DNA of 64,000 nt from Lindgomyces ingoldianus (lineage: Eukaryota; Ascomycota; Dothideomycetes; Pleosporales; Lindgomycetaceae), in contig NW_022985168.1 of assembly GCF_010093535.1 (NCBI RefSeq), forward strand, positions 1,480,328-1,544,327, read 5' to 3'. A program made the translations under genes and the position numbers. The notes under the pieces are model-generated. The model saw nothing but the letters and a program-made list of their open reading frames with translations, did not search any database and was not told where the DNA came from. This document shows positions 17,059-64,000 of this stretch, one piece after another. Each line of letters starts with the position of its first letter. The stretch's first letter is position 1.

Positions 17059-20000
17059 TCAGCGTTGAGCAATGCTCCTACCCGGACGCCTCTTCATCGC
17101 TTCTGTAACTTTCACCAGCAGCTCTTTGGCCTCATTCCACCGCCCTTGATTCCTATATGTCGATGCTAGGTTGTGGATGCTGGTTACTGTAGATGGATGC
17201 CCGGCTCCAAGCGTCCTTATGGATGTTTCCATCACTTGGACCTCCAGCTTTTCTGCCTCTTTCCACCGTCTTTGATTCCTGTATGTCGAAGCTAGGTTGC
17301 CCATACTGACGAGTGTGTCAGGATGCTCCTTGCCAAGCACTCTGGTGGAAATCTCCATCACCTGCACCTCAAGCTTTTCTGCTTCCTTCCACCGTCTTTG
17401 TTTCCAAAACGTCGATGCTAAGTTGCCCATGCTGACTAAAGTGTCAGGATGCTCCTCACCAAGTACCCTCTTTCTTATCTCCACTACTTGCTCCCCAAGC
17501 TCTTCGGCCTCCTTCCACCGCCCTTGATTCCAAAACGTGATTGCTAGGTTGCTCATGCACGCAAGTGTGTCTGGATGCTCCTTACCGAACACCCTCATTC
17601 TTGTCTCCATAGCTTGGTCCTCCAGTTTTTCGGCTTCCTTCCATAGCCCCTGATCTCTATATGCCGAGGCTAGGTTGCCCATGCTGGTCAGTGTGTTAGG
17701 ATGCTCATCACCGAGTACCCTCTTCCTCGTCTGCATTACTTGCGCGAACAACCCTTCAGCATCCTTCCACCTCCCCTGCTTCAAGAATGTTGAGGCCAAG
17801 TTGCCCATGCTGGTCAGTGTATCGGGATGCTCCTCTCCAAACAGCTTTGTTCTGATTTCCATTACTTGCACCCTCATCTCTTCAGCCTCCTTCCACCGAC
17901 CTCGGTTGCTATATATTAACGCTAGGTTATTCATACTAGTCAGGGTAGAAGGGTGCTTCTCTCCAAACAGCATTTTTCTGGTCCCTAAGAGTTCCGCCAA
18001 TAGCTTTTCAGCCTCCTTCCACCTCCCATAATTGTTGTACGTCAAAGCTAGGTTGTTCACGCACGTGAGCAGGTCTGGATGCTCCTTACCTAACACCCTC
18101 ATTCCTGTCTCCATGGCCTGGACCTCCAGCTTTTCGGCTTCCTGCCATCGCCCCTGATGCTTATATGTCAAGGCTAGATTACCCATGCTAATCAGTGTCC
18201 AACGATGCTCCTCCCCAAATATCCTCCTTCTCGTTTCCATCGCTTGCATAAAGAGCCCTTCCGCCTCCTTCCCCCGCCCTCTCTCCCGAATCATCGACGC
18301 CAAGTTGTCCATACTGATTAGCGTAGAAGGGTGCTCCTCCCCAAGTACTCTCTTTCTTGTTTCCATCACATGCGCCTCAAGCTCTTCCGTCTCCTTCCAC
18401 CTCCCTTGATCCCTGTAAGTTGATGCCAGGTTTGAAATGCCAGTCAGCGTATGTGGATGCGTCTCACCAAACACTTTCTTGGAGGTCTTCACTACTTGCG
18501 TAAACAACTCTTCCGCCTCCCCCCACCGACCTTCGGCATGACATAATCTTGACAATGTGTGAGTGTTTATTATCCACACAGCACTCTCCTGGCTATTACA
18601 ATGCTCTATATCTCCAATCTCTCGTCTGATAACTCCTTCGGCCTCGTTTAACCTATCACTCATGCGGTATTGATTGGTGAAATTAACCAATGTAATATGG
18701 CCGAGGGATTGTAGAGTACTATAAGTGGTGTCTGCTCGCGTTATGCTATCGGGTTTGGACGATTTAATTCGGCTCACGGTTTCGCAAAGTTCCAGTTCAG
18801 TTTTCCTGCTCTTGGGTAATAGCCCCGTTAACTTCAGCTCATCTCTACAACCGCCAAACCCAGTCTTATAGCAAAATGCGAGCTGAAAGGCAATATTAGG
18901 GTCGACACTAGTCTGTTGTTTGGTTTCCAGCAGGCGTCTAATGTACCGTCTTACTCGATAGTCTGACTGGTAGAGGGAATTTATAGATAGTATAATCTGC
19001 CTGCATCAACATAAAGTCTCAAATCTTAGGGTATCTCTCACCTCAAAGTTACAGTCGGGCACCCGGAATTCGCCCTTTTTCAGTCCGACCACTCCAGACC
19101 CTGCCCTTTGAGTAGTATTAGCCAAATGCGCATAAGTAGAACAATATAAGCTTACCAAGTTGGAATGAGGAGACCAGGCAACGCTGAAAGACTTTCGTCT
19201 CGTTCATCTGGGTTTCGGGCCAACGATGTGCTAAAGAATCGCTCTAGCGCTTTCTTCTTGTCGGTCTCTATATCTCTCTCGGCTAGAACGAGCTGCTGAG
19301 CAAGCATTGCCAATCTATCCTGCTGCTTCAGATCCGCGAGAATACTCTTGCACATATGTCTCTTCCCTTTGCCTTGGAAATATCGCTCCGCCCAGTATGC
19401 TTCGTGGGGCAACGGTGTAATCCCTGAGAGATACTTTTCAAAGAGGACCCAGAGGCATAGCATACCAAACGAGAACACATCCATCTTCCGTGCTTGGATT
19501 GGCTTCAACTTTTCGTGCTCGCATTCAGGCGCACACCAGGGCCATGACTTTGGTACAGAAACAAGGTCGTCTTCACCCGCAAATCGGGTGGAATATCCGA
19601 AATCTGTCACTCTTGCGGTGTACGCACCAGCGTCGTCTTTAAAGACCAAGACATTCTCAGGCTTAATGTCTCCATGTATAATCTCTGGAATTAATTTAGT
19701 TGGTTATTTTATAAGCTTATTGACCCTAGAGAACGTACTGTTGAAGTGCATGTCCAAGATCGCAATGCCAACGTCTACACAGAGCTTTAGACGCTCAGCA
19801 ACGCATAATGCTCTCCCTACTGGCAGCGTTGCAAAACTGTAAAGATCTCCGTATTGCGATTTTTCAAACACTAGCACCGGCCAGACTTTGTCATTGCCTC
19901 TATCATCGGATACAATATCCCAGCATATCCCCTGCAGCTCGACAATGTTGCGGTGCTTTCGAATCAATGGATGGCCAAGCGCGATAACTTCGCTGATGAG

Positions 20001-20294
20001 AGTATGGATAATTCTCTCCTCAGCTTGCTTCTCTTTCTGCCTGTTCGAGGCGCGCTTGAAAGCGAAGCTTGTGTGAAGGTCGATAAGAGCCTCGTTGATT
20101 ATGCCTGTCGCCCCTACTCCAATTGGCTGCCGTGCGGCCTGCCATGTAGTCGGTAGAATATCGACCTGGAGTTTTTGGATGACGGCGAGGAAGGTGATCA
20201 AGTCGTACGGGGCGTCCGCTTCTTGCACTGACTCTAAGGAAGCGTCGGAAAGGTAGCGGGGTTTGAAGAACGTAAGATCGTCGTCGGTGGACAT
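17059..20294 (-). CDS. Protein kinase-TPR fusion protein, receptor-like (non-self recognition type)
   Basis: Four exons (19739-20294, 19156-19684, 19042-19105, 17059-18996) encode 1028 aa. Residues about 55-330 form a protein kinase with a weak glycine loop (GVGATG), a candidate ATP lysine Lys80, HGDIKPEN with Asp191, DFG at 213-215, and CAPE at 236-239, so the catalytic residues look intact. The linker contains PDCNFE and a SDYRVRRYIRRLLE stretch. From about residue 500, twelve consecutive TPRs of 42 residues follow, of kinesin-light-chain type (pattern GRWKEAE..., HPDTLTSMGNLAS). They are nearly identical to each other. This kinase plus superstructure-forming repeat layout resembles fungal NLR-like receptors, with the kinase as effector. 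Function is inferred only. It is divergent from the kinase/pseudokinase gene starting at 20952. Its TPRs are of the same type as those in the NLR pseudogene at 36-39 kb. Confidence 0.8.
17110..18560 (-). repeat. Tandem 126-bp TPR-coding repeats
   Basis: Twelve in-frame 126-bp units encode the TPR array of the kinase-TPR gene. Units share long stretches of the GRWKEAE / HPDTL / NLAS codons. This level of similarity suggests recent duplication or unequal crossing-over within the array. Confidence 0.8.
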
Positions 20295-20951
20295 ATCCTA
20301 GGTGCACTTGAACCGGCGAACGGAGTCTAAATTGAGAACTAGTTACAAGTGGCTATGATGATTAGACATTGGGTGTTTTGATAGAGCAGGAAGAGCACTG
20401 GCGTGGTGGCAGCGCTAGGCTTCGGCCGTGCCTCGAACTCCCCTCGGTCGGATGTCTTGCCTGACTGGTGAGAACCCCGCTCCTTATATTGCTTCTGCTT
20501 TCGTCCAATGTTGGCCGGTCTATCGCTAGATTTTGAACCAGATAGCCCTACGGGAAACACCAGCGGATGTGTCAAAGTGTTCGCTTCCGTATCTACCTTC
20601 TATCATTTGTCAAGAGGACTTTACTGCTCGGTCCTGGCCGGCTTTTGGTATACCTAGCCCCACGCCTTTCGCCTTGTGGCTTCTTGACTAGTGATATCGT
20701 TCCTGTTTGACTGGTTTCGGGCGGTCCTAGCCGAGATCTCTCTCTCGTCGCCTAGCGGATCTTTCTGCAAGCACTGGCGGTATTTTATATAGAGCTATCC
20801 AACATTGGTAAGGATATGTTCGCAGTTTGTCTCCTTAATCCTCTGGGTTAGAGTGGCCAGTTGACTCAGACCTAATCTGCCCTCTGAAATGAGTATTTCA
20901 CTGCTTCCTTTCACTCGATGGATTTCACTCTGACTTAACATAGAATGAATT
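20295..20951. promoter_or_regulatory. Bidirectional promoter between the two kinase genes
   Basis: 657 bp separate the divergent start codons of the kinase-TPR gene (-) and the kinase/pseudokinase gene (+). No coding sequence is apparent. A TGACTCA occurs at 20862-20868, but it may be chance. The head-to-head layout would allow co-regulation. Confidence 0.5.
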
Positions 20952-23792
20952 ATGGATAAAAAAACGAATGATCTTGAGTCACGCATCAAGAGTCTTCGAC
21001 GCGAGAACGCAGATTATCGGTGGTTTATCCCTGAACTGCTTCTCCGCGAAGCATTATCAGAAGATGTGGTCCGGAAGGCGTTACTGGACGTTGGGGCTAA
21101 ACCATACCATCTTGACGAAATAGTAAAGCATGTTCTCACCAGCGGGATTAAGATTTTCGCTGTTCTCGTCTTAACTAACCAAGCTGCCATGACTTCCAAG
21201 TTCATTGAAGAGGGAGAATTTCAGGATCACAGGCTTCCCTTCAACCTGAATACTTTGGACAAGCAGCTCTCACTTCCGGCTGCCAAGGATTTCTACGAGA
21301 GGCAGTGGGAATTCACAGCGCCCACCTTTTATCGCGGCACGATCCATCGACTGCTCAACGACCGGTCCGTGCTTCCCTTCACCAAGGACAAGCGCATTGG
21401 CAACGGCGCATTTGGCACCGTATACGAAATCAAGTTGGATCAAAGCCACCAGAAAATGGAGGGAGCGTTTCAGAATAGGGTAGGAATATACCATACGCAC
21501 CGTCGATATATACGCATAGCTAACGTTTACAAGCTGGTGAGAAAGGAACTAGATGATGCCGGAAGCCACAGGATCGAGCTTGAAAACCTCGCAATTCTTA
21601 GCCACTTAAGACATCCGAACATTTTGGAGCTCTTGGCTTCGTACACATACAAAGGCAAACACAATCTGGTTTTTCCTCTGGCCGAGGGCGGTACACTGGC
21701 CGAGCTCTTCGCTAGTGATCGCCAAACAACACGCTTCAAATCCAACCAGGCTTTCTTCATTGCACTTACTCGTCTATCATCTGCTATTGAGCACGTCCAC
21801 AACTTTGTTGAGCGTCGGATCGATCTCAACCTCATTGGCTGCCATTATGATCTACGGCCTAAGAATATACTCGTCTCTAGAGACACATTTCTCCTTGCCG
21901 ACTTCGGTCTATCAAGGTTTAAGCAGGCTTCCGAAAGTTCAGGAGCGTTGTTCAAGGAGGGAGCTGGGGACTACCGCGCACCGGAATGTGAGGATATTGA
22001 TGACAATCTCTTTCCAAAATTTATTGTGCGTCGATCGAGCGACATTTGGTCGTTTGGTTGTATAATGGCGGAGGCTGTTACATATATGATTCTCGGCCAA
22101 GACGGCGTAGAGGAGTTCAGAAAAGTGCGAAGTTTTAAGAAGGGACAAGGGCGATATTATCTTTTCCACTGTGGGCTTGGCGAACCGAACGAAGCTGTAA
22201 TCAACTGGATATCGCAGTTAGAGCACAAATCGCCGAGGGAGTGCAAGATGCTCCTCAAACTGGTCCGGAATATGATCGCAATAGACGAAGAGAAACGGCC
22301 GAGGGCAAAAGAAGTTACAGCAAAACTACGGCTCATTGCGCAACACGTGGTGGTCGATTCTGTGGAGCAACTTTTCCGAGTTATTCCTTTTGGAAGCTCC
22401 CTTGATGCTCTTATTGAACAGAAGAGATTCCAGTCGTGGAAGTATGCCCTTGGGATGCTTGATCAGGAGAGTGTTTCGGATTCCACTAGGGACATTTATT
22501 GGGAGCACGAATCTCAGTTTGACTCTACACTGGATTGTCTTTACAAGATCCGAGATCTCCTGAAGTCTGCCTCCTCCCGGAAGCAAAGCATGGCAGCATT
22601 TCCTCATATTCCACTCAGTGAACTCAACGATCGCCTTGATGAGCTTCTGAATGAGAGATTGCAAGAGAAGTCCAGAGCTTACTTTAGAGCTTCCATGGTT
22701 GAGGATGAAGACAATTTGTTTCTCCAAATGGTTCGAGATGATGTCAAGGGGATGTCTTTCCCCAAAGAGATCAGAATGCGAGCCACTCTAAAGTACATGA
22801 CCGAATTAGCGATGCAACACCATGAAAGAGATACGTACAAGCGGCAACTCGACGTAAAGAGTGTAAAGGTCGGATCTGCATTTGGTGACCACAACATCGG
22901 GCGGTTCCAAGAGGGTGATCTCTCCCACCCGGTGCTAGTGGAATGGCGATGGTATGGGCGCCAATCCTCAGAGAAGACAATAAACCGTGAGCTTTTTGTT
23001 CGGGTCGACGCAATAGCCGATCTGCTAGGCCAAGATAAACCCAAGGAGTTCTGTACACTCGACTGCAGAGGGTTCTTTCACGATCCGAATCAATTTGCCT
23101 TCGGCGTCGTCTACGATTACCCACGGGCTACGGCACCATATCAGGGCAATCCACAACTTAAGTCTCTTCGCAAGTTAGTTACAGAAACCACCGCGTCAGT
23201 CAAACTTCACCCTACTCTTGACGATAAATTTAGGGTCGCGTACATTCTATCTCGATCTATATTAGAGTTTCACCTGGTTGCATGGCTGCATAAACGATTA
23301 AACTCATCGAACATCGCATTCTTTGCCACGACCGAGCTGCTTCAGGACGAGTGGTTCCAGATGCCATACGTTGTTGGCTTCAACCACAGTCGTCCTGATG
23401 AAATCTCGGCTTTTACCGGGGGCCCCGAGGATTCAGGCACTAATCGTTATCAACACCCTGCATATCTTAACACTACTCGAAGATATTGTGCAGAATTTGA
23501 TTACTATAGCCTTGGCATCATCCTCCTAGAAATTGGGCTTTGGAGACCCCTGGACGAGATAACTCGAAAGTATAAAGGTACTCACGAGCAAATTCGAGAC
23601 AAGCTTCTCCAAGAGCGGGTACCATTGCTCAAACAATCAATGGGTAGGCATTATTTTGAAGCCGTTAGGGTATGTATTGAAGGCGACTTTGATCAGTCAG
23701 AACTTAATGACGGACATGGAGGCAACACAAAGTCCTTACATCTTAGCTTTGAAAGATTAGTTGTCAGTCGGTTGAACCAATTCTCGAATTGA
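20952..23792 (+). CDS. Tandem kinase-pseudokinase protein, HET-type
   Basis: A single exon encodes 946 aa. The N-terminal helical region (1-140) resembles the leader of many fungal orphan kinases. Kinase 1 spans about 146-465: glycine loop IGNGAFGTVY, HYDLRPKN with Asp300, DFG at 317-319, APE at 343-345, and SSDIWSFGC. The usual Lys of HRDLKPEN is Arg here. A helical linker covers 466-620. Residues about 635-946 look like the degenerate kinase fold found at the C-terminus of fungal HeLo/HET-s-type proteins. The catalytic loop is reduced to NSSNIAFF, the DFG position reads VGFNHSR, and the diagnostic YYSLGIILLEIGLW helix is present; catalytic Asp residues are missing. No HeLo or NACHT domain is seen. 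By analogy this could be a signalling or sensing protein in non-self recognition. That is inference. The gene is divergent from the kinase-TPR gene. Confidence 0.8.
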   Translation: MDKKTNDLESRIKSLRRENADYRWFIPELLLREALSEDVVRKALLDVGAKPYHLDEIVKHVLTSGIKIFAVLVLTNQAAMTSKFIEEGEFQDHRLPFNLNTLDKQLSLPAAKDFYERQWEFTAPTFYRGTIHRLLNDRSVLPFTKDKRIGNGAFGTVYEIKLDQSHQKMEGAFQNRVGIYHTHRRYIRIANVYKLVRKELDDAGSHRIELENLAILSHLRHPNILELLASYTYKGKHNLVFPLAEGGTLAELFASDRQTTRFKSNQAFFIALTRLSSAIEHVHNFVERRIDLNLIGCHYDLRPKNILVSRDTFLLADFGLSRFKQASESSGALFKEGAGDYRAPECEDIDDNLFPKFIVRRSSDIWSFGCIMAEAVTYMILGQDGVEEFRKVRSFKKGQGRYYLFHCGLGEPNEAVINWISQLEHKSPRECKMLLKLVRNMIAIDEEKRPRAKEVTAKLRLIAQHVVVDSVEQLFRVIPFGSSLDALIEQKRFQSWKYALGMLDQESVSDSTRDIYWEHESQFDSTLDCLYKIRDLLKSASSRKQSMAAFPHIPLSELNDRLDELLNERLQEKSRAYFRASMVEDEDNLFLQMVRDDVKGMSFPKEIRMRATLKYMTELAMQHHERDTYKRQLDVKSVKVGSAFGDHNIGRFQEGDLSHPVLVEWRWYGRQSSEKTINRELFVRVDAIADLLGQDKPKEFCTLDCRGFFHDPNQFAFGVVYDYPRATAPYQGNPQLKSLRKLVTETTASVKLHPTLDDKFRVAYILSRSILEFHLVAWLHKRLNSSNIAFFATTELLQDEWFQMPYVVGFNHSRPDEISAFTGGPEDSGTNRYQHPAYLNTTRRYCAEFDYYSLGIILLEIGLWRPLDEITRKYKGTHEQIRDKLLQERVPLLKQSMGRHYFEAVRVCIEGDFDQSELNDGHGGNTKSLHLSFERLVVSRLNQFSN

Positions 23793-26756: not shown

Positions 26757-28216
26757 GGCCTTCCATCGCCAGAGCAGGCCATGTAGGTTTTTGTCAGTCT
26801 ATTATGTCCGAGCGTTGCGTTTTAGCTTGATGGATCCGCCATGTTCAATATTAGAAATGGAAGGATCCAGGACCCAGGGACTGTAACCCATACAATTTAG
26901 GATGGATTTTGGGGAGTCCCCATATAAGCTCAACCGGCAACTATTGAGGAGGGTTAAGTGACTAGTGGGGACGCTGGGGGAACCTAGATAATAAGGAGTG
27001 ATTAGGGACTCCGCTTCAACAAGAGTATACTAGGACAACGAGGCTTCTCCACGCAGTAAAGCAAGCAGCTCTAAGGCCAAGCTCTTAATATAAAAACGAG
27101 AATGCCATGCACGATTTGCTATTAGCCAATTCTTTGAGTGGATGCCTAGACCCCCGTTAGCTTGACCACCAGAGTCTGGGAATTTCTATGGCTCTCTACG
27201 ACTCCTCGCAGCCATGTAACATCCTATGAGTATCATCTCAACGTAGCTTAGAGTTTAAGTGGTGAACTGGAAAGACAACTTCGCTTTGATGTACAATACA
27301 AGGCCACCATAGATCTTTTTTTGGAAGCGCACGTCATTCGCCACACGACCTGTCGATCGCGGCCCGCCTTATTTTTGTGGAACGGCCGTCTCGCGCGAAC
27401 GCCACATCTCCGATCGCCCTCAAAAGTTTCGACCACCACAGCGACTACCTTTGCGACGACACCCGCCGCCCTTTATCATGCTGCTGCTTATGCGGCTCTA
27501 AAGACTTCTGTTCATTCGTCAGCTCGTCCCTAATCGCTGCAACACTATGTTGGTTTCAGCACATCAAGGGTGTTGTAACCGCCTGTTTCCCGAGCCACAC
27601 CGTCATCACGCCGACTTCTATTCCTGGGGCGAAATCTAATAATAAGCATAGCATGCACCTAAATTGCCTACCTCAGTAACCACAAGATATACTATACCTG
27701 GCGATCCAGCCTGCCGGCGCTTATATTCCATCTCTGTAGGGCTGGGGTATGCCAGTGCGCCGGTTAAGCTTCATCCGAACAGTGTGGCCATGCACCTTTA
27801 GAGAAAACATCCTTCAGCCGCCTTGCTTGGCACGTTTCGCTGTGGGAGGTTGGGGAAGCCAGACAGGTCCTTGCCGCGTAGGTCTGGCCGTTGATTTGTG
27901 GTAATGATCCGTCAAGCATGCTATGTCTAAATTCATTGCATTGCTGGCGAGCACGTTCCTAGTAACGAACGTGTCTGATGTTTCACGCAGCTGCGAATCA
28001 TCAGTCGGATACTGGTCGCTTATGTCAGGCCATGCTTCGATAATAGTAGCTTAATGGTAAGGAACTGCTGCTTCTGCTTCTTCCCCCCGGCCTACCACAC
28101 TTCTCCTCTCGTTCGGTCTACCAAAGACTACCTCTTTACTTTCTCATTCACTTCGAAGCTGGCAGAGCCAGCCGATTTCTTAGACGTTCCCTAGTGGAAC
28201 ATAATCCAATACGTCT
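26757..28216. other. Intergenic region, no gene supported
   Basis: About 1.46 kb. Open frames at 27321-27679 are Ala/Ser/Thr-rich and show no domain. A pyrimidine-rich stretch at 28070-28145 probably belongs to the promoter of the DUF3176 gene. Confidence 0.5.
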
Positions 28217-30613
28217 TTGAAGATGTCGAGCTCAATGATATGGCCCACATATCCAGACATACCTATCTTTCTCGAAACTAGTGATGATCGCGGATTACCG
28301 AAGTCGTATGGAACTACTCCCACCACGCCGACTATCTCTCTTGCTATTGAGAATTCACCAGGGCAACCAGTCCACCTCAGCGTCCCGACGTCATCGACTC
28401 TTCCGGCTCGGGGCTGTTCTGCAGTATGGCCTATCCCAGAACCACCGCCAGAGATCGAAGTGCAGCAGCCTCGCAGGCCTTTACTTCGCTTCTTTCCATT
28501 AGAAAGGCCAAGGGTTTGCTTCAATGGTGCTCGTGCTTTGCAGTGTTCAGAGAAAACCGAATTCACCGACTTGGAATCGGGCACCGCGGACACCCACAAC
28601 AAGATCAATTTCGGTGGTTTGGGCATCATGAATGGTCCAACCAAGCTTCCATCCACTCAAACACCATCCCTAGTCGATGAAAAACCCGAAAGCTCGCCGA
28701 ACATTGCGGAACGAATCGAACAGAGGCTTTGGCGGTATAGCTTGAACGGAAATGTAATCGAAAGATGGCTGCTCGAGATTATTAGCTGGATAATAAGTGC
28801 CATATGCATGGGCGCTATTGTTGGTGTCCTCATATACCTGAGAAATCAGCCTTTATCCAAGTGGCAGCTCAGCAGGATCGGCCTCACACTAAACGCCTTC
28901 GTCTCAGTCCTGTCTAAGGTCGCCTCTGCAGCTCTTCTTCTACCAGTAGCTGAGGCACTAGGGCAACTGAAGTGGAGTTGGTTCCAAGGCCACTCAAAGA
29001 AGATGTGGGACTTTGAAATATTCGACAACGCTTCGAGAGGGCCATGGGGTTCATTTCTCTTGTTGATCCGGACGAAAGGCATGACGCTAGCGGCATTAGG
29101 AGCTTTGGTCACCATATTTGCACTGGCGCTAGATCCTTTTTTCCAGCAGGTGGTCGACTTCCCTGACCGATGGAAGCTCCAAGGGAATAGCTCAATTCCT
29201 AGGGTGGTGCGATATGACCCCGTTTATCCAGAAGAGTACATGAACGGACTGTTGCAAGCACAGCGCGATGAAAACCTCGAGGCGGTGCTCAAAAACTTCT
29301 TCTACGACAATGGGACCCAACCAATGCTGTTCGGCAATGGCACCCGGGCAGAAGTTCCTCTTTCCTGCCCAACTAGCAACTGCACCTGGCCGCCATACGA
29401 AACTCTTGGGGTCTGTAGCCAGTGTGTAAATGTTTCCCAGCTCCTTACGTTTGATTGTCTCGAAACGCGGGTGGACTGGACGTCTAATCTAACTGGTCCC
29501 GGAACCGAGTGGACATACCCAAATGGAACTGTGTGCGGGTATTGGCTCAATTCGACGAGCAAGGAGCCAGTTCTTATGTCGGGATATTTGAAAAACTCGA
29601 CCAACTCCGGTGAAGAGGAAGCTCTGTTGATGCGCATTTTAGCTCTCGTGACCAACCCTAAGAGGCAGACTTTCTATGGTGGTTCGATAAACTTCAAGCA
29701 TATTCGCAATCCGATAGAAGACTTCATCATCGTTGGTGCCGCGAACGAAGCTCCAAGTGTGTACCGTAATGAGACGCCCATCGCACACGAATGCGTGCTT
29801 TCGTGGTGTGTTAAAACGATTCGTTCATCTTACTGGCAAGCAACGTATCAGGAAGAAGTGACAGACCTTTACATGAACGAAACGGAAGGACCTTACCCTT
29901 GGACAACTATACGGATCGATAGCCCGCAAGGAAGTGGTACTGATACCTACTACGCGGAAGATATCGTTATTGACGCGCCCTCATCAGGTCCAAACCAAAC
30001 TTACGGGCTTAGCAATCTTACAGCCGTGAACACCATTAGCATCTTTGACGACATTTTCCCTTCATTTACGACCGTTGCAAACTCTTCGTCTGAACCACTG
30101 TTAAGGTACAGGACAAGCTTCGTGAACAAAGTCATGCGTCGGGTAATGCGGAAGAACCCATGGATACCACCAGCGAACGTAAGCGAACACGTGGACAGGA
30201 TGGCGACGGCCTTTACCAACGTGATTCGAGCAGGGTCGAGCAAGGAGATGATCTACGGCGACGCATACGACAAAAAAACGTATGTGTCGGTACGGTGGGG
30301 ATGGCTTTCCCTTCCACTTGGCCTGCTCATTCTTAGCTTTGTCTTTCTCGTTGCCACAATCATCAAGAGTGCAAGGGAAACGGGACAAGTGGGGGTACGG
30401 AAGACGTCGGCTATGGCAACACTACTCTACGGTCTGCCAGACCATTATCAAGAAAGAATTACCCGCTCAGTATCCAAAGGCACGCCGCGAGCAAGGGCGA
30501 AGGAACTGAGGGTAAAATTACTCCCAAAGAAAGGTTGGAGAATTTCCGGAAATATGATCTCTCCCATGACACCTAAAGCTCCACGGACCCAACCTCCGCC
30601 GGGTTGGCTGTGA
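28217..30613 (+). CDS. DUF3176 family membrane protein
   Basis: A single exon encodes 798 aa. A disordered N-terminus of about 165 residues is followed by RLWRYSLNGN..ERWLLEIISWIIS and a first membrane helix. The DUF3176 core follows: NQPLSKWQ, LSLN-like VSVLSKVASAALLLPVAE, LGQLKWSWF, FDNASRGPWGS. A second membrane span comes near GMTLAALGALVTIFALAL. A large luminal or extracellular domain of about 400 residues carries many N-x-S/T sites and paired cysteines (CPTSNCTWPP, CSQCVNVSQL). The last membrane helix is WLSLPLGLLILSFVFLVATII, before a basic cytosolic tail. The biochemical function of the family is unknown. The start could also be the ATG at 28223. The gene converges on the secreted repeat-peptide gene with 156 bp between stops. 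Confidence 0.85.
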   Translation: MKMSSSMIWPTYPDIPIFLETSDDRGLPKSYGTTPTTPTISLAIENSPGQPVHLSVPTSSTLPARGCSAVWPIPEPPPEIEVQQPRRPLLRFFPLERPRVCFNGARALQCSEKTEFTDLESGTADTHNKINFGGLGIMNGPTKLPSTQTPSLVDEKPESSPNIAERIEQRLWRYSLNGNVIERWLLEIISWIISAICMGAIVGVLIYLRNQPLSKWQLSRIGLTLNAFVSVLSKVASAALLLPVAEALGQLKWSWFQGHSKKMWDFEIFDNASRGPWGSFLLLIRTKGMTLAALGALVTIFALALDPFFQQVVDFPDRWKLQGNSSIPRVVRYDPVYPEEYMNGLLQAQRDENLEAVLKNFFYDNGTQPMLFGNGTRAEVPLSCPTSNCTWPPYETLGVCSQCVNVSQLLTFDCLETRVDWTSNLTGPGTEWTYPNGTVCGYWLNSTSKEPVLMSGYLKNSTNSGEEEALLMRILALVTNPKRQTFYGGSINFKHIRNPIEDFIIVGAANEAPSVYRNETPIAHECVLSWCVKTIRSSYWQATYQEEVTDLYMNETEGPYPWTTIRIDSPQGSGTDTYYAEDIVIDAPSSGPNQTYGLSNLTAVNTISIFDDIFPSFTTVANSSSEPLLRYRTSFVNKVMRRVMRKNPWIPPANVSEHVDRMATAFTNVIRAGSSKEMIYGDAYDKKTYVSVRWGWLSLPLGLLILSFVFLVATIIKSARETGQVGVRKTSAMATLLYGLPDHYQERITRSVSKGTPRARAKELRVKLLPKKGWRISGNMISPMTPKAPRTQPPPGWL

Positions 30614-30769: not shown

Positions 30770-31312
30770 CTATTGCTTCTGACCAGAGCCGCCATCAGGG
30801 ATGAACACAGGCTCTCGCTTCTGTCCAGAGCCACCATCTGGGATGAAGACAGGCTCTCGCTTCTGTCCAGAGCCACCATCTGGGATGAAGACAGGCTCTC
30901 GCTTCTGTCCAGAGCCACCATCTGGGATGAAGACAGGCTCTCGCTTCTGTCCAGAGCCACCATCTGGGATGAATACAGGCTCTCGCTTCTGTCCAGAGCC
31001 ACCATCTGGGATGAATACAGGCTCTCGCTTCTGTCCAGAGCCACCATCTGGGATGAATACAGGCTCTCGCTTCTGTCCAGAGCCACCATCTGGGATGAAT
31101 ACAGGCTCTCGCTTCTGTCCCGAGCCACCATCTGGGATGAAGACGGGTCCTCGTTTCAGCACCATAGTATCGACATCTCCAACCTGTGTGCACCATCAGT
31201 ATGGGTGATTGTGGCGACAAACATGATTGGCACTTACCACAGCAACAGAAACCGGAGCAGCGAAGGAAGAAAGAGCGAAGGCGGCAATGAGAAAGAGGTA
31301 GCGCCCGTGCAT
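30770..31312 (-). CDS. Kex2-processed repeat peptide precursor (secreted)
   Basis: Two exons (31238-31312, 30770-31183; intron 54 nt, GTAAGT...CACACAG) encode 162 aa. Exon 1 gives a textbook signal peptide: basic start MHGR, hydrophobic core YLFLIAAFALSSFAA, likely cleaved after Ala18 or Ala19. A short pro-segment ending in LKR follows. The rest is nine direct 14-residue units of (G/E)PVFIPDGGSGQKR; the last ends in KQ and then stop. Lys-Arg is the Kex2 site. The X-Pro at the start of each unit is a substrate for Ste13-type dipeptidyl aminopeptidase, which would leave VFIPDGGSGQ. The layout is that of alpha-pheromone precursors and of KEP/RiPP precursors (ustiloxin, phomopsin and epichloecyclin type). 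The core has no Cys, Trp or Tyr and matches no pheromone I know. No UstYa-like (DUF3328) partner is seen in the window. The biological role is unknown. Confidence 0.8.
30773..31150 (-). repeat. Nine tandem 42-bp peptide-coding units
   Basis: Nine head-to-tail 42-bp units (378 bp) in the secreted precursor. They differ mainly at one Val codon (GTG once, GTC in four units, GTA in four) and a Ser codon, all synonymous. The only amino-acid changes are Gly for Glu at the start of the first unit and Gln for Arg at the end of the last. The array therefore looks homogenised or conserved at the peptide level. Confidence 0.95.
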
Positions 31313-36339: not shown

Positions 36340-38850
36340 AGGTTCAACGTCTCTCGATGCATCATCTTCTCTGCCTCAGCGTACTTCACCTGTTCACCTA
36401 GTTTCACCTGTTAGTGTCTGAGCGCTCCTCTCCTAGCACCTTCTCTTGCAGTGCCAACGTCTTGCGATAAATCCTCCCTAAATCCGCATACTCTCCCTAT
36501 CGCTTAGTACCCTTGCCGCATTGCCTATATTGGCTAGCCTGCTTGGGTCCTCATTTTCTGGCACTTTCTCTACCAGGGTCAACGTCTCTCGGTGCATCTT
36601 CTCCGCCTCCGCATACTTCCCCTAGTCACTTAGGACCTCTGCCACATTAGCCACGCTTGTTAGCGTGCCTGGGTGCTCCTCTCCTCGAACCTTCTCTTTC
36701 AGTCTCAACGTCTCTTGATGCATCTTCTCCGCCTCTGGATACTTCCCCTAGTTGCTTAGCGCCTCTACCACACTACCCATGCTCGTCAGCGTGCCTGGGT
36801 GCTCCTTTCCTAGCGCTTCTCTCGCAGTGCCAACGCCTCTCGACGCCTCTTCTCTGCCTCCGCGTGTTTCCTCTGATTGCTTTCTGTCTCTGTCACATTG
36901 CCCATACTCGTCAGCGTCTATGGATGCTCATTTCTTAGCATCTTCTCTTGCAATGCCAACGCCTCGTGATGCATCTTCTCCGTCTTCGTATATTTCCCCT
37001 GATTTTTTAGCACCCCTGCCGCATTGCTCGTCATCATGTCAGGGTGCTCCTCTCCAAATATCTTTTCTCGTAGTGCAGATATCTCTCGGTGCATCTTCTC
37101 CGCCTCTACGTGCTTCCCCTGATCGCGTAAAGATCGCTTAAAGTTACCGCTATATTGTTTACGATTCCCAGTGCGTCTGGGTGCTCATTACCAATGACTC
37201 ATTTCCTTATATTTCCTACCTCCGAAAAGAGCTTCTCGGCTTCTGCCTATCTTTCTTGAGAGAAAAGGGTAGATGCGAGGATAGTTTTCGCTTGAGTTTG
37301 GGAATGGTCGATATCAAACGCCACTCTGAACCCTTCAGCCTTCCGCGAACATTGCTCAGCTTCCTGATATTACCTCTGATGCCCAGCAAAAAGCTAAGGA
37401 ACTGTAGACTGATAGCTTGTCTAAATTGTTAGAACCAAGGGTCATTTCACATCCCTCTTGGATCTGTTTAGCCCATTTTGCGGCCTCATTGTATTTCCCC
37501 TCGGCCATAAGCAGCCAAGATACGCTAAGCCCGTAATTTAGAGCGAGCACGTCTTTGGATTAAATAGCTGCTGGGTTCCTGTAGCAGCAGTGTCGTCGAG
37601 TTCCTAGAACGCTTACTGTATTTTCCATGCTCTGGAATAATAGGCTGTTGAGTGGCGCAGGGTCATGTAAAGTAGCAGATATGCATTTCGGAATGAACCA
37701 AAGTTAATGGCGGCCTCAGCATGAGGACGTAATGATTTACTCATGATCCAGTATCCATCATTTGGCGTAGGCGAAACGTCAAGAAGCGCTAGCAAGCTCT
37801 GTTTTTTAGTTTGTGTAAATCTACCCTCCCTTCTATCCGCTTCCATACTAATAGTTGCACAAGGCGGTCGGCTTGGTAACGATTCGACTTAACATCTTGG
37901 GAGAGAAAGGCGTAGTTTCCTAACATAATGATACCTTCATCAATGTCGTCCCTAAACATGTTGTACTTATTATGAGAATTTTGAAAGATCATTCCAGTCA
38001 TCTCTAGTGTTTCTAGTAGGTACGCTTGGGAAGGGTTGGACATAACAGGAAGGAGTCTATAGCGCTAGTTAGTACAATACCTACGCGAATTATTGCAAAG
38101 CCCTTACAGAAGTACCCCGAAGGTTGTGAGAAGTGATCTGGCAATAGAAAGCTGCATCTTTAAATAGACCTCTATTATAATAGTGACTGCAATGGCAAAA
38201 AGAACGCTATAAACAGTGCGGTCATACGACTGCCATCTGCGGAATGTTAACTGATGAGATCAGACCCCGGAAGAGTAAATTAGAATTTCTGGGATCTCCG
38301 GCCGGTTGAAAAGCTTAGCACTGAGAGCAACGCAGTCTTAGTAAGCCTATCTGCTTGAATATCATGGAAAGATTTGTGCTAGGTCAGAACATTAGGGCTC
38401 GCTTGCTTGATATTCGTAGACTCCCGCCAGAGATCCCTGTAGGCTTGCTCGAGAAAGCCACCCTTTTTTACCCTTCTCTTTTAATTTCGACCAGCTATTG
38501 AGAGTGCACTTTGGAAATTTGTAGTTTAGGAATGCAGTAACCTGAGAGATAGCAAGTGGGATGCAGCCAAGGGCTCTGACAAGGCCAGGCGCTTTACCGT
38601 TGTCCCATCTGAAAGCGCAAAAGAGAGGGCAAGGTTGATTAGGGAAGAAGGGCCTGTCGTGGTTGGTGATGAACCATGGTTGAAGCAAATGACCGAACAA
38701 CATTGGCCTTTTGATGGCTGTAACGAGGATGAGTAAGAATCGAAAAAGCCCAATAGGTTGTGGTATGCCCTGGTTCGGGATTGATGACCGGAGCGTGACT
38801 TGTTGGGAGACACGGAGGAAATCAAAGGCAGGTGCAACCAGCATGGTATA
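36340..38850 (-). pseudogene. Decayed NLR gene (NB-ARC plus TPR)
   Basis: Fragments on the minus strand occur in NLR order but in different frames with many stops. At 38392-38630 is the NB-ARC segment ALGCIPLAISQVTAFLN. At 37789-38043 is the post-NB-ARC winged-helix-like piece with EGIIMLGNYAFLS and ADRLVQLLVWKRIE. At 37613-37830 is KKQSLLALLDVSP..., and at 37356-37550 the first TPR-like helices. At 36340-37140 are 42-residue kinesin-light-chain type TPRs (EAEKMHREISALREKIFGEEHP). A P-loop is not found, so the 5' part is lost or too decayed. Several stops arise as TAG at positions where sister repeats have CAG, a CpA to TpA change typical of RIP. About 350 bp at 38044-38391 look unrelated and may be an insertion. 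Confidence 0.7.
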
Positions 38851-59397: not shown

Positions 59398-60126
59398 TGG
59401 GCAAATGTGGTCGATGTTTGTGTGTGTTTCATTCCGGGGCGTGTATTCCGTCTCAGGAACCGACCACCCGATGGCGTCTTGCGTGGTTGTGGGTCTTGGA
59501 TTCATTTCTGTTTTTGCGTGGCTTTGGATGGGATGCGTCATCATTCTTGCATTACACATGCTGTTAGTTCAGGTTCTTTGGGTCTTTTTTGTAGCATGAC
59601 TGGCCGGCGTTTGGTGTTTTTCTTCTTATTTTGCTGGATTCAATTCATTAAGTCACCCTCTTTCTTATCCCATCTCGTGTCTCGCTCTCTTTATAATTCA
59701 TTGGCAAATTGTAATTGTGGTTGTGCTTATTCGTTGTGTAGATGTAGCTTGGTGCGTGTGGAGGTATTGCTACTATGACCTGTAACCTGGTACTTACGTG
59801 TTCTTGATGGCATCGTCTTCTTCCCCTTCCTCTATCATAATAGTATAATGGAATTCAACTCAACAGAGAGATTCGTATGTAGTTAATAGTCTCCGTAATT
59901 TTGGTAGGAGGTTTGACTATTTAACTAACGTCCCTCCCTGCCGAGACACCCTCCACGCTGAGACAGATAAAGGGTACTCTAGTTAACTTTCAGTAACTTG
60001 ATTTTAGCGCACACGTTAGTATATATCACAATTCTATATAAGTTGTATACTATAGCTATTCTAAAATATATAAGGCTTCTCCTGCTAAAAAATTACATTT
60101 GTAATATTGTCTTTGCGCTTAAGTAA
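59398..60126. other. Intergenic, increasingly AT-rich
   Basis: The 3' flank of the C78 gene, then AT-rich sequence leading into the palindrome. No gene is seen. Confidence 0.5.
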
Positions 60127-61231
60127 TAACGTACTTCACAGGCGAGTTGCTCACACACCTAAGTTGCTTACTTTTACTAAGACCCTACTAAACTACCCTT
60201 TCTACACTAATGCATTCCCTATAACACTACTTAAACGCGCTAAAAGAATGTTAGATATAGCTTATGCTCTAAGCTTTTAAATAAGACATAAAACTCTTAA
60301 AAAAAATGTGCTACAGCTATATATAAAGTTTTATAAAAAATAATAAATAACTATAGCACTAGATAACCTTTATAAGCTAATTTTACAGCTAAATTATAAA
60401 GGCTAGGTAATAAAAAGAAGTAGGTAATTATTAAGACTATACTTAAGCTATATACATAAGGAATTTCCTTTTAGATAGCATTTATAGCTAATATAGCTAA
60501 TTTTTTACGCGCTAAGCGTAATCTAGGCTATATTTATATAAACTAGCCTAGTATATTTATAAAGTGTTATTTAAAGCTTAAAGTAAAGTTTTAAGCATAA
60601 GTATAGTTAAAAGATATTTAGCTAATTATAAACTCTGTTTTACTAAAGTTGTACATGTTATTATTTTAGATGCTATACTTAGCTTTAATATTTTTTATAA
60701 GGCTAAACCTGCTCTAAATTACTTTAAGACTTTTATAAAAAGCTCTTTTATAGTTATACTTATGCTTAAATGTTACTTTAAGCTCTAAATAACACTTTAT
60801 AAATGTACTAGGCTAGTTTATATAAACATAGCCTAGATTATGCTTAGCATGTAAAGAATTAGCTATATTAGCTATAAATACTATTTAAGGGGAAATTTCT
60901 TACGCATATAGCTTAAGTATAGTCTTAATAATTACCTGCTTTTTTTTATTACCTAGCCTTTATAATTTAGCTATAAAATTAGCTTATAAAAGTTATTTAG
61001 TGCTATAGTTATTTATTATTTTTTATAAGACTTTATATATAGCTGTAGCATGTTTTTTTAAGAGTTTTATATCTTATTTAAAAGCTTAGAGTATAAGCTA
61101 TATCTAATGTTCTTTTAGCGCGTCTAAGTAGTGTTGTAGGGAATGCATTAGTATAGGAAGGGTAGTTTAGTAGGGTCTTAGTAAAAGTAAGCAACTTAGG
61201 TGTGTAAGCAACTTGCCTGTGAAGTACGTTA
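60127..61231. repeat. 1.1-kb AT-rich palindromic (foldback) element
   Basis: The whole interval is one inverted repeat of about 520-bp arms around a centre near 60680. Both ends read TAACGTACTTCACAGGC. In the outer 115 bp the two arms differ at six positions, all transitions (C/T or G/A) and none transversions, as expected for RIP of a duplicated sequence. No coding frame survives. It may be a large MITE, or two inverted copies of an element after RIP. Confidence 0.85.
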
Positions 61232-62243
61232 AAGAACTTTCTTTATATAAAACAATACTGCTTTGCTACAGTAACACTATTAAGCTGTTACTACTTATAA
61301 TACTTATATAGGTATTTTATCTACACCTAAGAAGCCTATAATGTTCTAATAAGTTTTCGTTAGTCTTGTGTCTATTATTGCGCATGAATTTATACAGGTT
61401 GCCGTCCTAATTAGTACCTCTAATAAGACGAATCACTAATCCTAGCTACTGAAAGACAGCTATAATTTTATTACATTGTAATCGACTTACACCGGCCGCC
61501 AAGCAGGCTCGTGGTTGTCACACCTGTGGCTGTGCGAAGCCTTAGCAAGCTAGCCAGCCTAAACCTCGCAGCTTTGCGATCCAACTCAACCTTAGCTGCT
61601 TTCTGCCTCCCAGTCAACCATTCACCCTGCTAGCGGTGGCGACATCAAGTGCTAAATCACTTTGACTACTAGATTTTAACTCACAAGCATGCATACGCGG
61701 CTGGACTCTTTGCGCATATCCACAAGCGGTCCGCCGCGCTAAACATATTGAGCTCGTTCATGTTATTGTGGGGCGGCTGTGTCCGAGGTATGAACAGGGA
61801 CCGCAACTAGCTCTGAAGGTAGCCGAATCTGACGAGGATGCTTGGCTCATCAATATATATATGTCTCTTGTAAAACCGATACGCAATAAGATTAAATATC
61901 CATTCACGATATCCCTGCTATGCTGCAGTGCGGCTATCTTCAACCTTTGCCAAGACATTGTAATATTCGTTTCCTGCTCAGGCCAAGACATACACAGCCT
62001 TCTGGTTTCGCTGCTGCCTAATCGTTCAGATCTCCTTCAAATCGTTCACTCAAAAGGCTATTGCCTCAAACCGTCATCATTGGTATGGGTAATTGAACTT
62101 ACTTTGTTGAGCATAGAGGCCTACACCCGTAAGTCGCATAATAGTACTGCTGTCAGTCATAACTCTAACCATCACAGCACTGTCCATACATCTCCACGGC
62201 AACACAGTACCCGTTCCCAAAATATATTTGCCAAAGATCGCAA
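61232..62243. other. Intergenic region before the HET gene
   Basis: About 1 kb. 61232-61480 is AT-rich and continues the decayed zone. A 167-codon plus-strand frame at 61768-62271 is not in frame with the HET gene and has no domain. The region should hold the HET gene promoter. Confidence 0.45.
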
Positions 62244-64000
62244 ATGGCCCGTTTTAAATACAAGCCAATAGATCTCGGAGGTCCTTCCTTTCGCCTTATT
62301 CGTCTTTTCAAAGGGGAAGATGGACCGATTCAGTGCGAATTGTTCGATGCATGGCTTCATGATGCAGAAGAAATTATGGAGTACGAAGCTTTGTCGTACA
62401 CATGGGGGGGTACAGAGAAGCCGTACGAAGTAGAGATTAATAAGAAGAGAATGTCGGTCACGGACAACTTGTCTCTAGCACTACGACATCTGCGTTACCA
62501 ACATCAAGACCGGATTCTATGGATTGACGCAATCTGCATTGATCAGGAAAATGATAAAGAGCGGGGACATCAAGTGCAACAGATGGCGTCCATCTATAAA
62601 AGAGCTGAACGGGTTATTATCTGGTTGGGCGGAGCCACTGCTGAGACAGATCTGATCTTGCGTTTTATGAATCGACTAGAGGAAGAGCGTATTAAACATG
62701 CATGCAACAAGTGGAAATCCTCAGACAAGAGGTGGTCGGACATATGGTCGTCTGTTCAGCCATTACTGGGTGATGTACAGGATGACCTGATGTTTCGACA
62801 GCGTAAGGGTCTAGCGTCCCTCTTAGGTCGGTCCTGGTTCAGGAGAGTTTGGATTATACAAGAAGTTGCCAACGCACGGGCGGCCGAAGTTGTGTGTGGC
62901 ACCAAGTCAGTCTCAGCGCGCATCTTTGCTCTCATTCCATCTTTAGTAGGGATGACTCCAGATGTCCATTGCCAAGCTGTCTTGGATATAATGCCAGGTT
63001 CTTCTCGGAACAACTCTTGGTGGAGTCAAAAGCGCGACCTTCACACATTACTGCTCAAATTCAACGCAAGCGAGGCTTCCGACCCGAGAGATATTATCTA
63101 TGCGTTGCTTGGTATATCATCAGATGGGCATAATACGGACACCCTAGTACCAAACTATGAGAAGTCTGTACAGGAAGCTATTTGCGACACTATTTCCTTC
63201 TTACTTCACTACCACGACTGTGAAAGTCCTATAAATTGCTTACCGCGGTGGACATTAGCCGAGTTTCTGCAGAATTTGGAATCACTCAGCAATGCAGTTT
63301 TCGATTGGGCAATAGAGGGGAGCCATCGGGGTATAGTGGAGTTGCTAATGCACCGTGAAGATGTGGATGTGAACTGGAAGGGTAAGTCTGGCCGGCCACC
63401 TCTATGGAGGACAGCAGACAGAGGAGATAAGGTGATAGTGAAGCTACTGTTGGAGCACAACGACATTGATGCTGACTGGAAGGATAGCAGCGGCCAGACG
63501 CCGCTATGGAGGGCGGCAGACGGAGGGTATGAGGAGGTCGTGAAGCTACTGATGGAACACAACGATGTTAACCTAAACTCAAGGGATAGTAGCAACCAGA
63601 CACCACTACGGAGGGCGGCAGACAGAGGACATGAGGCGGTAGTGAAGCTACTGTTGGAACACAACGATGTCAATGCCGAACCAAAGGATAACAGCGGCCA
63701 GACGCCGCTATGGAGGGCGGCAAATGGAGGGCATAGGGCAGTGGTGAAGCTATTGCTGGAACGCGACGATGTCGACCCGAACTCGAAAGATAGTAGCGGC
63801 CAGACGCCACTATGGAGGGCAGCAGACGGAGGGCATGAGGCGGTGGTGAAACTACTGCTGGAACACAACGATATCAATGCCGAACCCAAGGATAGAAGCG
63901 GCCAAACGCCGTTATGGAGGGCGGCAGACGGAGGGCATGAGGCGGCAGTGAAGCTACTGCTAGAACGCAACGATGTTAACCCAAATTGGAAGGATAGTAG
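62244..64000 (+). CDS. HET domain-ankyrin repeat protein (partial, runs off the window)
   Basis: The frame is open from the ATG at 62244 to the window end (585 codons) with no stop, so the 3' end is missing. Residues about 45-200 form a HET (heterokaryon incompatibility) domain with YEALSYTWGG, ILWIDAICIDQ and the RRVWIIQEVANA box. These domains trigger cell death after fusion of unlike hyphae. From about residue 350 there is an ankyrin array with units of 34 residues (pattern SGQTPLWRAADGGHEAVVKLLLEHND), at least six in the window and very alike. Repeat domains of this kind normally sense the non-self signal. The gene lies next to a RIP-affected palindrome in an accessory-looking zone. Domain calls are firm; recognition of a specific partner is inference. 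Confidence 0.9.
   Translation, partial: MARFKYKPIDLGGPSFRLIRLFKGEDGPIQCELFDAWLHDAEEIMEYEALSYTWGGTEKPYEVEINKKRMSVTDNLSLALRHLRYQHQDRILWIDAICIDQENDKERGHQVQQMASIYKRAERVIIWLGGATAETDLILRFMNRLEEERIKHACNKWKSSDKRWSDIWSSVQPLLGDVQDDLMFRQRKGLASLLGRSWFRRVWIIQEVANARAAEVVCGTKSVSARIFALIPSLVGMTPDVHCQAVLDIMPGSSRNNSWWSQKRDLHTLLLKFNASEASDPRDIIYALLGISSDGHNTDTLVPNYEKSVQEAICDTISFLLHYHDCESPINCLPRWTLAEFLQNLESLSNAVFDWAIEGSHRGIVELLMHREDVDVNWKGKSGRPPLWRTADRGDKVIVKLLLEHNDIDADWKDSSGQTPLWRAADGGYEEVVKLLMEHNDVNLNSRDSSNQTPLRRAADRGHEAVVKLLLEHNDVNAEPKDNSGQTPLWRAANGGHRAVVKLLLERDDVDPNSKDSSGQTPLWRAADGGHEAVVKLLLEHNDINAEPKDRSGQTPLWRAADGGHEAAVKLLLERNDVNPNWKDS
63330..64000 (+). repeat. Tandem 102-bp ankyrin-coding units
   Basis: At least six 34-codon units follow one another to the window edge. 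They share codons almost exactly, for example GGCCAGACGCC and GTGAAGCTACTG. Such identity suggests recent duplication, or concerted evolution as known for high-identity repeats of fungal NLR/HET genes. Confidence 0.85.

Follow-up and report, generated by a model that had tools for sequence, protein, structure and literature searches.

Here, we describe a gene of the freshwater fungus Lindgomyces ingoldianus that lies on the minus strand of a 64,000-nucleotide stretch of DNA (the window) and that is predicted to encode a secreted repeat-peptide precursor of the Kex2-processed repeat protein (KEP) class. On balance, we favor the following reading as probable: the gene is a single-copy, apparently unannotated, lineage-restricted KEP gene whose product would be a linear secreted peptide, VFIPDGGSGQ, made by the alpha-factor route, and that peptide would be an extracellular signal or interaction peptide and not the mating alpha-pheromone. 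The gene type is already known; for the peptide itself, no relative was found.

The gene possesses two exons (Table 1). The original prediction had placed a spliced minus-strand gene with a 54-nt intron at 31312-30770, and reading the sequence confirmed these coordinates exactly. The predicted precursor begins with a signal-peptide-like segment that would likely be cleaved after Ala18. Following the pro-region, its layout is (G/E)PVFIPDGGSGQ-KR eight times, then EPVFIPDGGSGQ-KQ-stop. The proposed count of nine 14-residue units separated by Lys-Arg is likewise borne out by nine 42-nt units, and the program TRF also detects the array (period 42, 98% matches). KEPs are defined by three or more similar units with KR, RR, or KK at their borders and by repeats that make up at least 15% of the precursor (cut-off of PMC6339444). 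Here, the repeats account for 126 of 162 residues, and Lys-Arg precedes all nine units. X-Pro directly follows Lys-Arg in 9/9 units, and the Pro at position 2 is kept in every one of them, including the unit that has G instead of E as residue 1.

Table 1. Features of the peptide-precursor gene and its convergent neighbor (window positions)
Feature	Position	Strand	Description
Peptide-precursor gene	31312-30770	-	ATG at 31312; stop at 30772-30770; two exons; predicted product 162 aa
Exon 1	31238-31312	-	75 nt; encodes MHGRYLFLIAAFALSSFAAPVSVAV; signal-peptide-like
Intron	31184-31237	-	54 nt; GTAAGT...ACTGAT...CACAG; ACTGAT is the likely branch site
Exon 2	31183-30770	-	VGDVDTMVLKR, then nine units, then stop
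Pro-region, exon 2 part	31151-31183	-	VGDVDTMVLKR; first Lys-Arg at its end
Repeat array	30773-31150	-	GPVFIPDGGSGQKR once, EPVFIPDGGSGQKR seven times, EPVFIPDGGSGQKQ once; 14 residues (42 nt) each
Stop codon	30770-30772	-	TAG, read from the sequence
Convergent neighbor, open frame	28205-30613	+	DUF3176 domain (PF11374, E 6.4e-37); context only

The pattern of variation among the units argues that the array is protein coding. Specifically, comparing all units with their consensus gives 13 base differences, and when each is considered singly, 11 are silent in the precursor frame. In the remaining minus-strand frames, 0 and 2 of the 13 are silent, and in the plus-strand frames, 1, 6, and 2. The plus-strand frames through the repeat are equally long, just as the original prediction had warned, and their differences are mostly not silent. 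By hand count, the 13 differences represent about ten events, of which eight hit third codon positions, and several are one change copied by duplication: units 2-5 are identical to one another, as are units 6-8. The array harbors two amino-acid changes: unit 1 has Gly in place of Glu, and unit 9 ends with Gln in place of Arg. Both sit where processing would tolerate them, namely at the X of X-Pro and at a terminal Arg beyond which no later cut would be needed. Because conservation in another species could not be shown, purifying selection is argued from units within one gene that are partly homogenized.

The start of the gene provides a second line of evidence. Of the window's 988 open ATG starts, 4, the precursor ATG included, reach a signal-peptide score as high as that of the precursor, according to a rough, home-made measure and not SignalP. 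Among the 31 GTAAGT sites in the window, five carry the remaining short-intron signals, again including the precursor intron. That intron is in the correct phase and, with the signal-peptide segment, lies directly upstream of the array. Among all ATGs of the window, only the precursor ATG both comes within 0.5 of the precursor's score and has such an intron 60-250 nt further downstream. Could the open frames be accidents of a tandem repeat, with no gene present? The opposite-strand frames are also open through the array, and protein searches (below) returned neither an annotated copy nor a relative, as this notion would have it. Against it stand the 11 of 13 differences silent in the precursor frame alone and the signal peptide plus correct-phase intron immediately ahead of the array, the sole such pair found in the window. 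We therefore regard an accidental origin as highly improbable, and we infer transcription and splicing of the gene.

How might the peptide be made? The signal peptide would bring the precursor into the secretory pathway. Subsequently, Kex2 would cleave after each Lys-Arg, leaving Lys-Arg tails for a Kex1-type carboxypeptidase to trim, and Glu-Pro or Gly-Pro would be taken off by a Ste13-type dipeptidyl aminopeptidase. As for the yeast mating factor, the units are expected to be cut apart by host enzymes. Each precursor would yield eight linear VFIPDGGSGQ peptides and one VFIPDGGSGQKQ. The calculated [M+H]+ masses are 976.4734 for VFIPDGGSGQ, 1202.5688 for EPVFIPDGGSGQ, and 1184.5582 for the pyroglutamyl form of the latter. 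Up to nine VFIPDGGSGQ copies had been proposed; given that unit 9 ends in KQ-stop, its KQ would be kept, and eight rather than nine are expected. Similarly, the proposed EP-extended form suits the other units but not unit 1, which begins with GP. The core of the proposal, a secreted, Kex2-bounded precursor whose units each start with X-Pro, appears well supported by the sequence, and families that could supply the enzymes are matched in the genome: the Kex2 P-domain family once and DPPIV_N in two genes. These families also occur in 1 and 5, respectively, of 14 control prokaryote genomes, so the matches mark enzyme families and not Kex2 and Ste13 themselves. Secretion, each cleavage, and the linearity of the product are what we infer from this arrangement.

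The precursor gene is single copy. The assembly searched comprises 68.4 Mb in 99 contigs, with the window at C7:1480328-1544327. Its first STE2 exon matches BDR25DRAFT_287960 of L. ingoldianus (Pleosporales, Lindgomycetaceae in the NCBI taxonomy) with 100% identity over 97% of the query, and Clohesyomyces aquaticus follows with 64%. A protein search of this genome returned this locus only, via three matches: the two exons and one opposite-strand frame. A degenerate FIPDGG pattern has nine sites in the whole genome, all nine within the array, and the reversed control pattern has one. Searches of ~5.8 billion proteins with the whole precursor revealed no convincing relative; among 8000 candidates scored, there was one match, at E 9.2e-3. 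The protein matched (P0002) contains repeats and, by eye, starts like a lipoprotein; we take the match as low-complexity similarity. Precursor residues 1-52 drew four candidates, none of them at E up to 10. These searches covered subjects 0.55-1.75 times the query length and used 5-residue words, so fast-changing repeats could escape them. An STE2 search of the same database gave 421 proteins; the best 120 listed include the STE2 of L. ingoldianus and those of many other named Dothideomycetes, mostly Pleosporales. Given this coverage, the absence of the precursor among the annotated proteins of these fungi is informative within the length range searched. The precursor gene is apparently unannotated, and its absence from the protein set searched suggests how annotation may miss a small, spliced, repetitive gene.

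Family models provided no assignment for the precursor. DUF5967 of Pfam reached E 9.6e-5 and 22.7 bits, below its curated cut-off of 25, with its best stretch in eight repeat residues. DUF4075 of Pfam (E 0.0087, 16.6 bits, cut-off 25) and lasso_burhizin of NCBIfam (E 0.51, 10.3 bits, cut-off 45, best stretch again eight repeat residues) were likewise rejected. The PDB contained no match up to E = 1. From the literature side, the strings VFIPDGG, FIPDGGSG, PVFIPDGG, and IPDGGSGQ are absent from the full text searched, supplementary KEP-survey tables aside. Neither PMC6339444 nor PMC7329392 contains four-letter pieces of the core in its main text, again leaving aside the survey tables, where this genome may be missing. 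Literature on second KEP or pheromone-like precursors in Pleosporales and on the species itself showed no match to a VFIPDGGSGQ peptide. Thus, the description of the core as undescribed holds as far as tested: neither a protein relative nor a literature text with its letters came to light. A private core is common among KEPs, given that 2560 of the 7878 KEPs surveyed by Umemura, about a third, have no homologue (PMC7329392).

The original prediction had likened the layout to those of mating pheromone and KEP/RiPP precursors, and the KEP comparison stands. Like KEPs, the precursor opens with a signal-peptide-like segment and carries more than three near-identical units set off by Lys-Arg; it differs from them by its core, which is absent from the literature text searched. 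The precursor also shares with ascomycete alpha-pheromone precursors (Ppg1/MFalpha type) a cutting plan of Kex2 sites and then X-Pro for Ste13, with no UstYa near. VFIPDGGSGQ could be the second, or the true, alpha-type mating pheromone of a homothallic-looking fungus, acting through STE2. In agreement with this idea, the layouts match, the Ste13 X-Pro signature included, and the genome has STE2 (on C18), STE3 (on C7), and, at one locus, a MAT alpha-box gene along with an HMG-type ORF recognized by eye. Moreover, the STE13 signature is generally dedicated to alpha pheromones in Ascomycota, as stated in PMC6339444. We initially favored the VFIPDGGSGQ gene as the genome's alpha-pheromone gene itself, and we dropped this assignment once a separate precursor was found.

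This separate precursor, L044, is encoded on the minus strand of C6 around 1180216-1180371. Its 250 predicted residues start like a signal peptide and include KREAEA-type spacers and five RCRLVGQPC cores, besides some degenerate cores, and we read it as a cysteine-type alpha-pheromone precursor, canonical in layout. Alpha-pheromone cores of the two-cysteine group have their cysteines around GQ, with a GQ-C spacing. TGAAACA/TGTTTCA, the Ste12-type site, is absent in exact form within 1 kb upstream of the VFIPDGGSGQ gene. VFIPDGGSGQ itself possesses neither the two cysteines nor the PYGxPxG (PYG[LM]P[IV]G) motif described for Dothideomycetes in PMC6339444. L044 appears to fill the alpha-pheromone role, and the VFIPDGGSGQ gene would then most likely serve another purpose. 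The mating pheromone part of the earlier comparison therefore finds no support: the VFIPDGGSGQ gene is probably not the mating pheromone, and we consider action as an alpha-type pheromone through STE2 unlikely.

L044 was found with a composed protein query of PYG and KREAEA repeats, as one weak match (E = 0.45). L044 has no PYG motif, so the match presumably arose through the KREAEA spacers. The PYG[LM]P[IV]G pattern has 0 sites in the whole genome, as does its reversed control. A [WF]CxxxGQxC-type pattern has 34 sites, compared with 20 for its reversed control, and the 30 of these 34 that were read together with up to 60 residues on either side revealed no repeated Lys-Arg precursor. This pattern missed L044: it calls for Trp or Phe before the cysteine, and the L044 cores have Arg there.

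We note that L044 is a cysteine-type precursor within Pleosporales. PMC6339444, in contrast, describes Pleosporales as a group whose pheromones are of the PYG[L/M]P[I/V]G type. The MAT locus (C2:2604266-2607691) holds a MAT1-1-1-like alpha-box gene and, on the opposite strand, an ORF that is HMG-type by eye. The two have ~60 N-terminal residues in common, and the locus contains an exact inverted repeat of >150 bases. This arrangement suggests homothallism. Finally, a long open frame at C6:748251-748277 ends in WCPYPGQKC-stop and earlier contains CPYPYPGELC, a pheromone-like motif in a protein lacking the repeated Lys-Arg layout.

Dikaritin precursors (ustiloxin, phomopsin, and asperipin type) have a signal peptide and Kex2-bounded repeats in common with the VFIPDGGSGQ precursor. 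They raise the question of whether VFIPDGGSGQ is a dikaritin-kind ribosomal peptide, enzymatically cyclized, with UstYa encoded elsewhere. The layout is the same as that of ustiloxin-type precursors, and the genome contains at least 31 exon-level matches to the UstYa family model. Dikaritin cyclization uses a Tyr in the core, and VFIPDGGSGQ has none. The sole UstYa match on C7, at 161344-161628, is ~1.35 Mb from the gene, whereas the mean distance for UstYa-linked cases is 3.09 genes in the survey of Umemura (PMC7329392). Furthermore, the X-Pro signature is present here, and the STE13 signature is reported to be absent from such toxin precursors (PMC6339444). Around the gene, Pfam revealed neither UstYa (DUF3328) nor another modifying enzyme in seven proteins and 76 frames of at least 75 aa. 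These 76 are drawn from 120 such open frames at 16.5-46.5 kb and match G6PD, ribosomal L35Ae, kinase, and TPR families only; the other 44 are overlaps of larger genes, the array, the seven proteins scanned separately, and the 44.7-46.6 kb edge. The convergent DUF3176 neighbor is no known peptide-modifying enzyme. Given the ~1.35 Mb to UstYa and the core with no Tyr, a linear product is favored and a cyclic dikaritin is very unlikely; the RiPP part of the earlier comparison thus finds no support.

What might a linear VFIPDGGSGQ do? Most likely, the peptide would work extracellularly, either as a signal or on other organisms; this role is a choice among several that sequence fails to separate. 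Le Marquer et al. consider KEPs with the STE13 signature good hormone candidates and report that the precursors of Rep1, cyclic toxins, and epichloecyclins lack it (PMC6339444). Vogt et al. detected products of STE13-bearing KEPs in mushrooms (PMC9769878). Both papers leave the role of STE13-bearing KEPs open. In its most specific form, the signaling idea posits a non-mating peptide hormone, made via Kex2, Kex1, and Ste13 beside an intact alpha-pheromone and read by a non-STE2 receptor. We regard this specific version as conceivable, though not likely.

Roles other than signaling come from precedent. Structural or surface peptides (akin to the Rep1 repellent) and antimicrobial or host-directed peptides are known among other KEP products (PMC6339444 and PMC9769878). 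Likewise, six kep knockouts in C. cinerea have no apparent phenotype, which their authors read as pointing to a function directed at the biotic environment (PMC9769878). The VFIPDGGSGQ core, in contrast, is short and Gly-rich, carries Asp as its sole charged side chain, and looks neither amphipathic nor cationic; Rep1, for its part, has no STE13 signature (PMC6339444). We assign such a non-signal role a low probability.

Returning to the reading that we favor, a linear interaction or signal peptide, the gene is somewhat distinctive in bearing a full Ste13 signature in an ascomycete with a separate alpha-pheromone gene. That signature has so far been treated as a near-mark of ascomycete mating pheromones (PMC6339444), and the precursor offers a clean case for asking whether ascomycetes also make other peptide signals by the alpha-factor route. 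A short peptide that is predicted to be linear is easy to synthesize, which makes the question directly testable.

Other features of the window deserve mention. TPR-repeat genes with 126-nt repeats lie at 17059-20297 (minus strand) and 36424-37120, a protein kinase frame sits beside the first, and a further kinase with DUF7580 is present at 20949-23792. Positions 60001-62000, an AT-rich island of 33% GC where the flanks have about 50%, contain short tandem repeats; the island looks like a RIP-affected repeat. It is adjoined by an open frame at 62169-63998 with HET-like and ankyrin-like sequence by eye.
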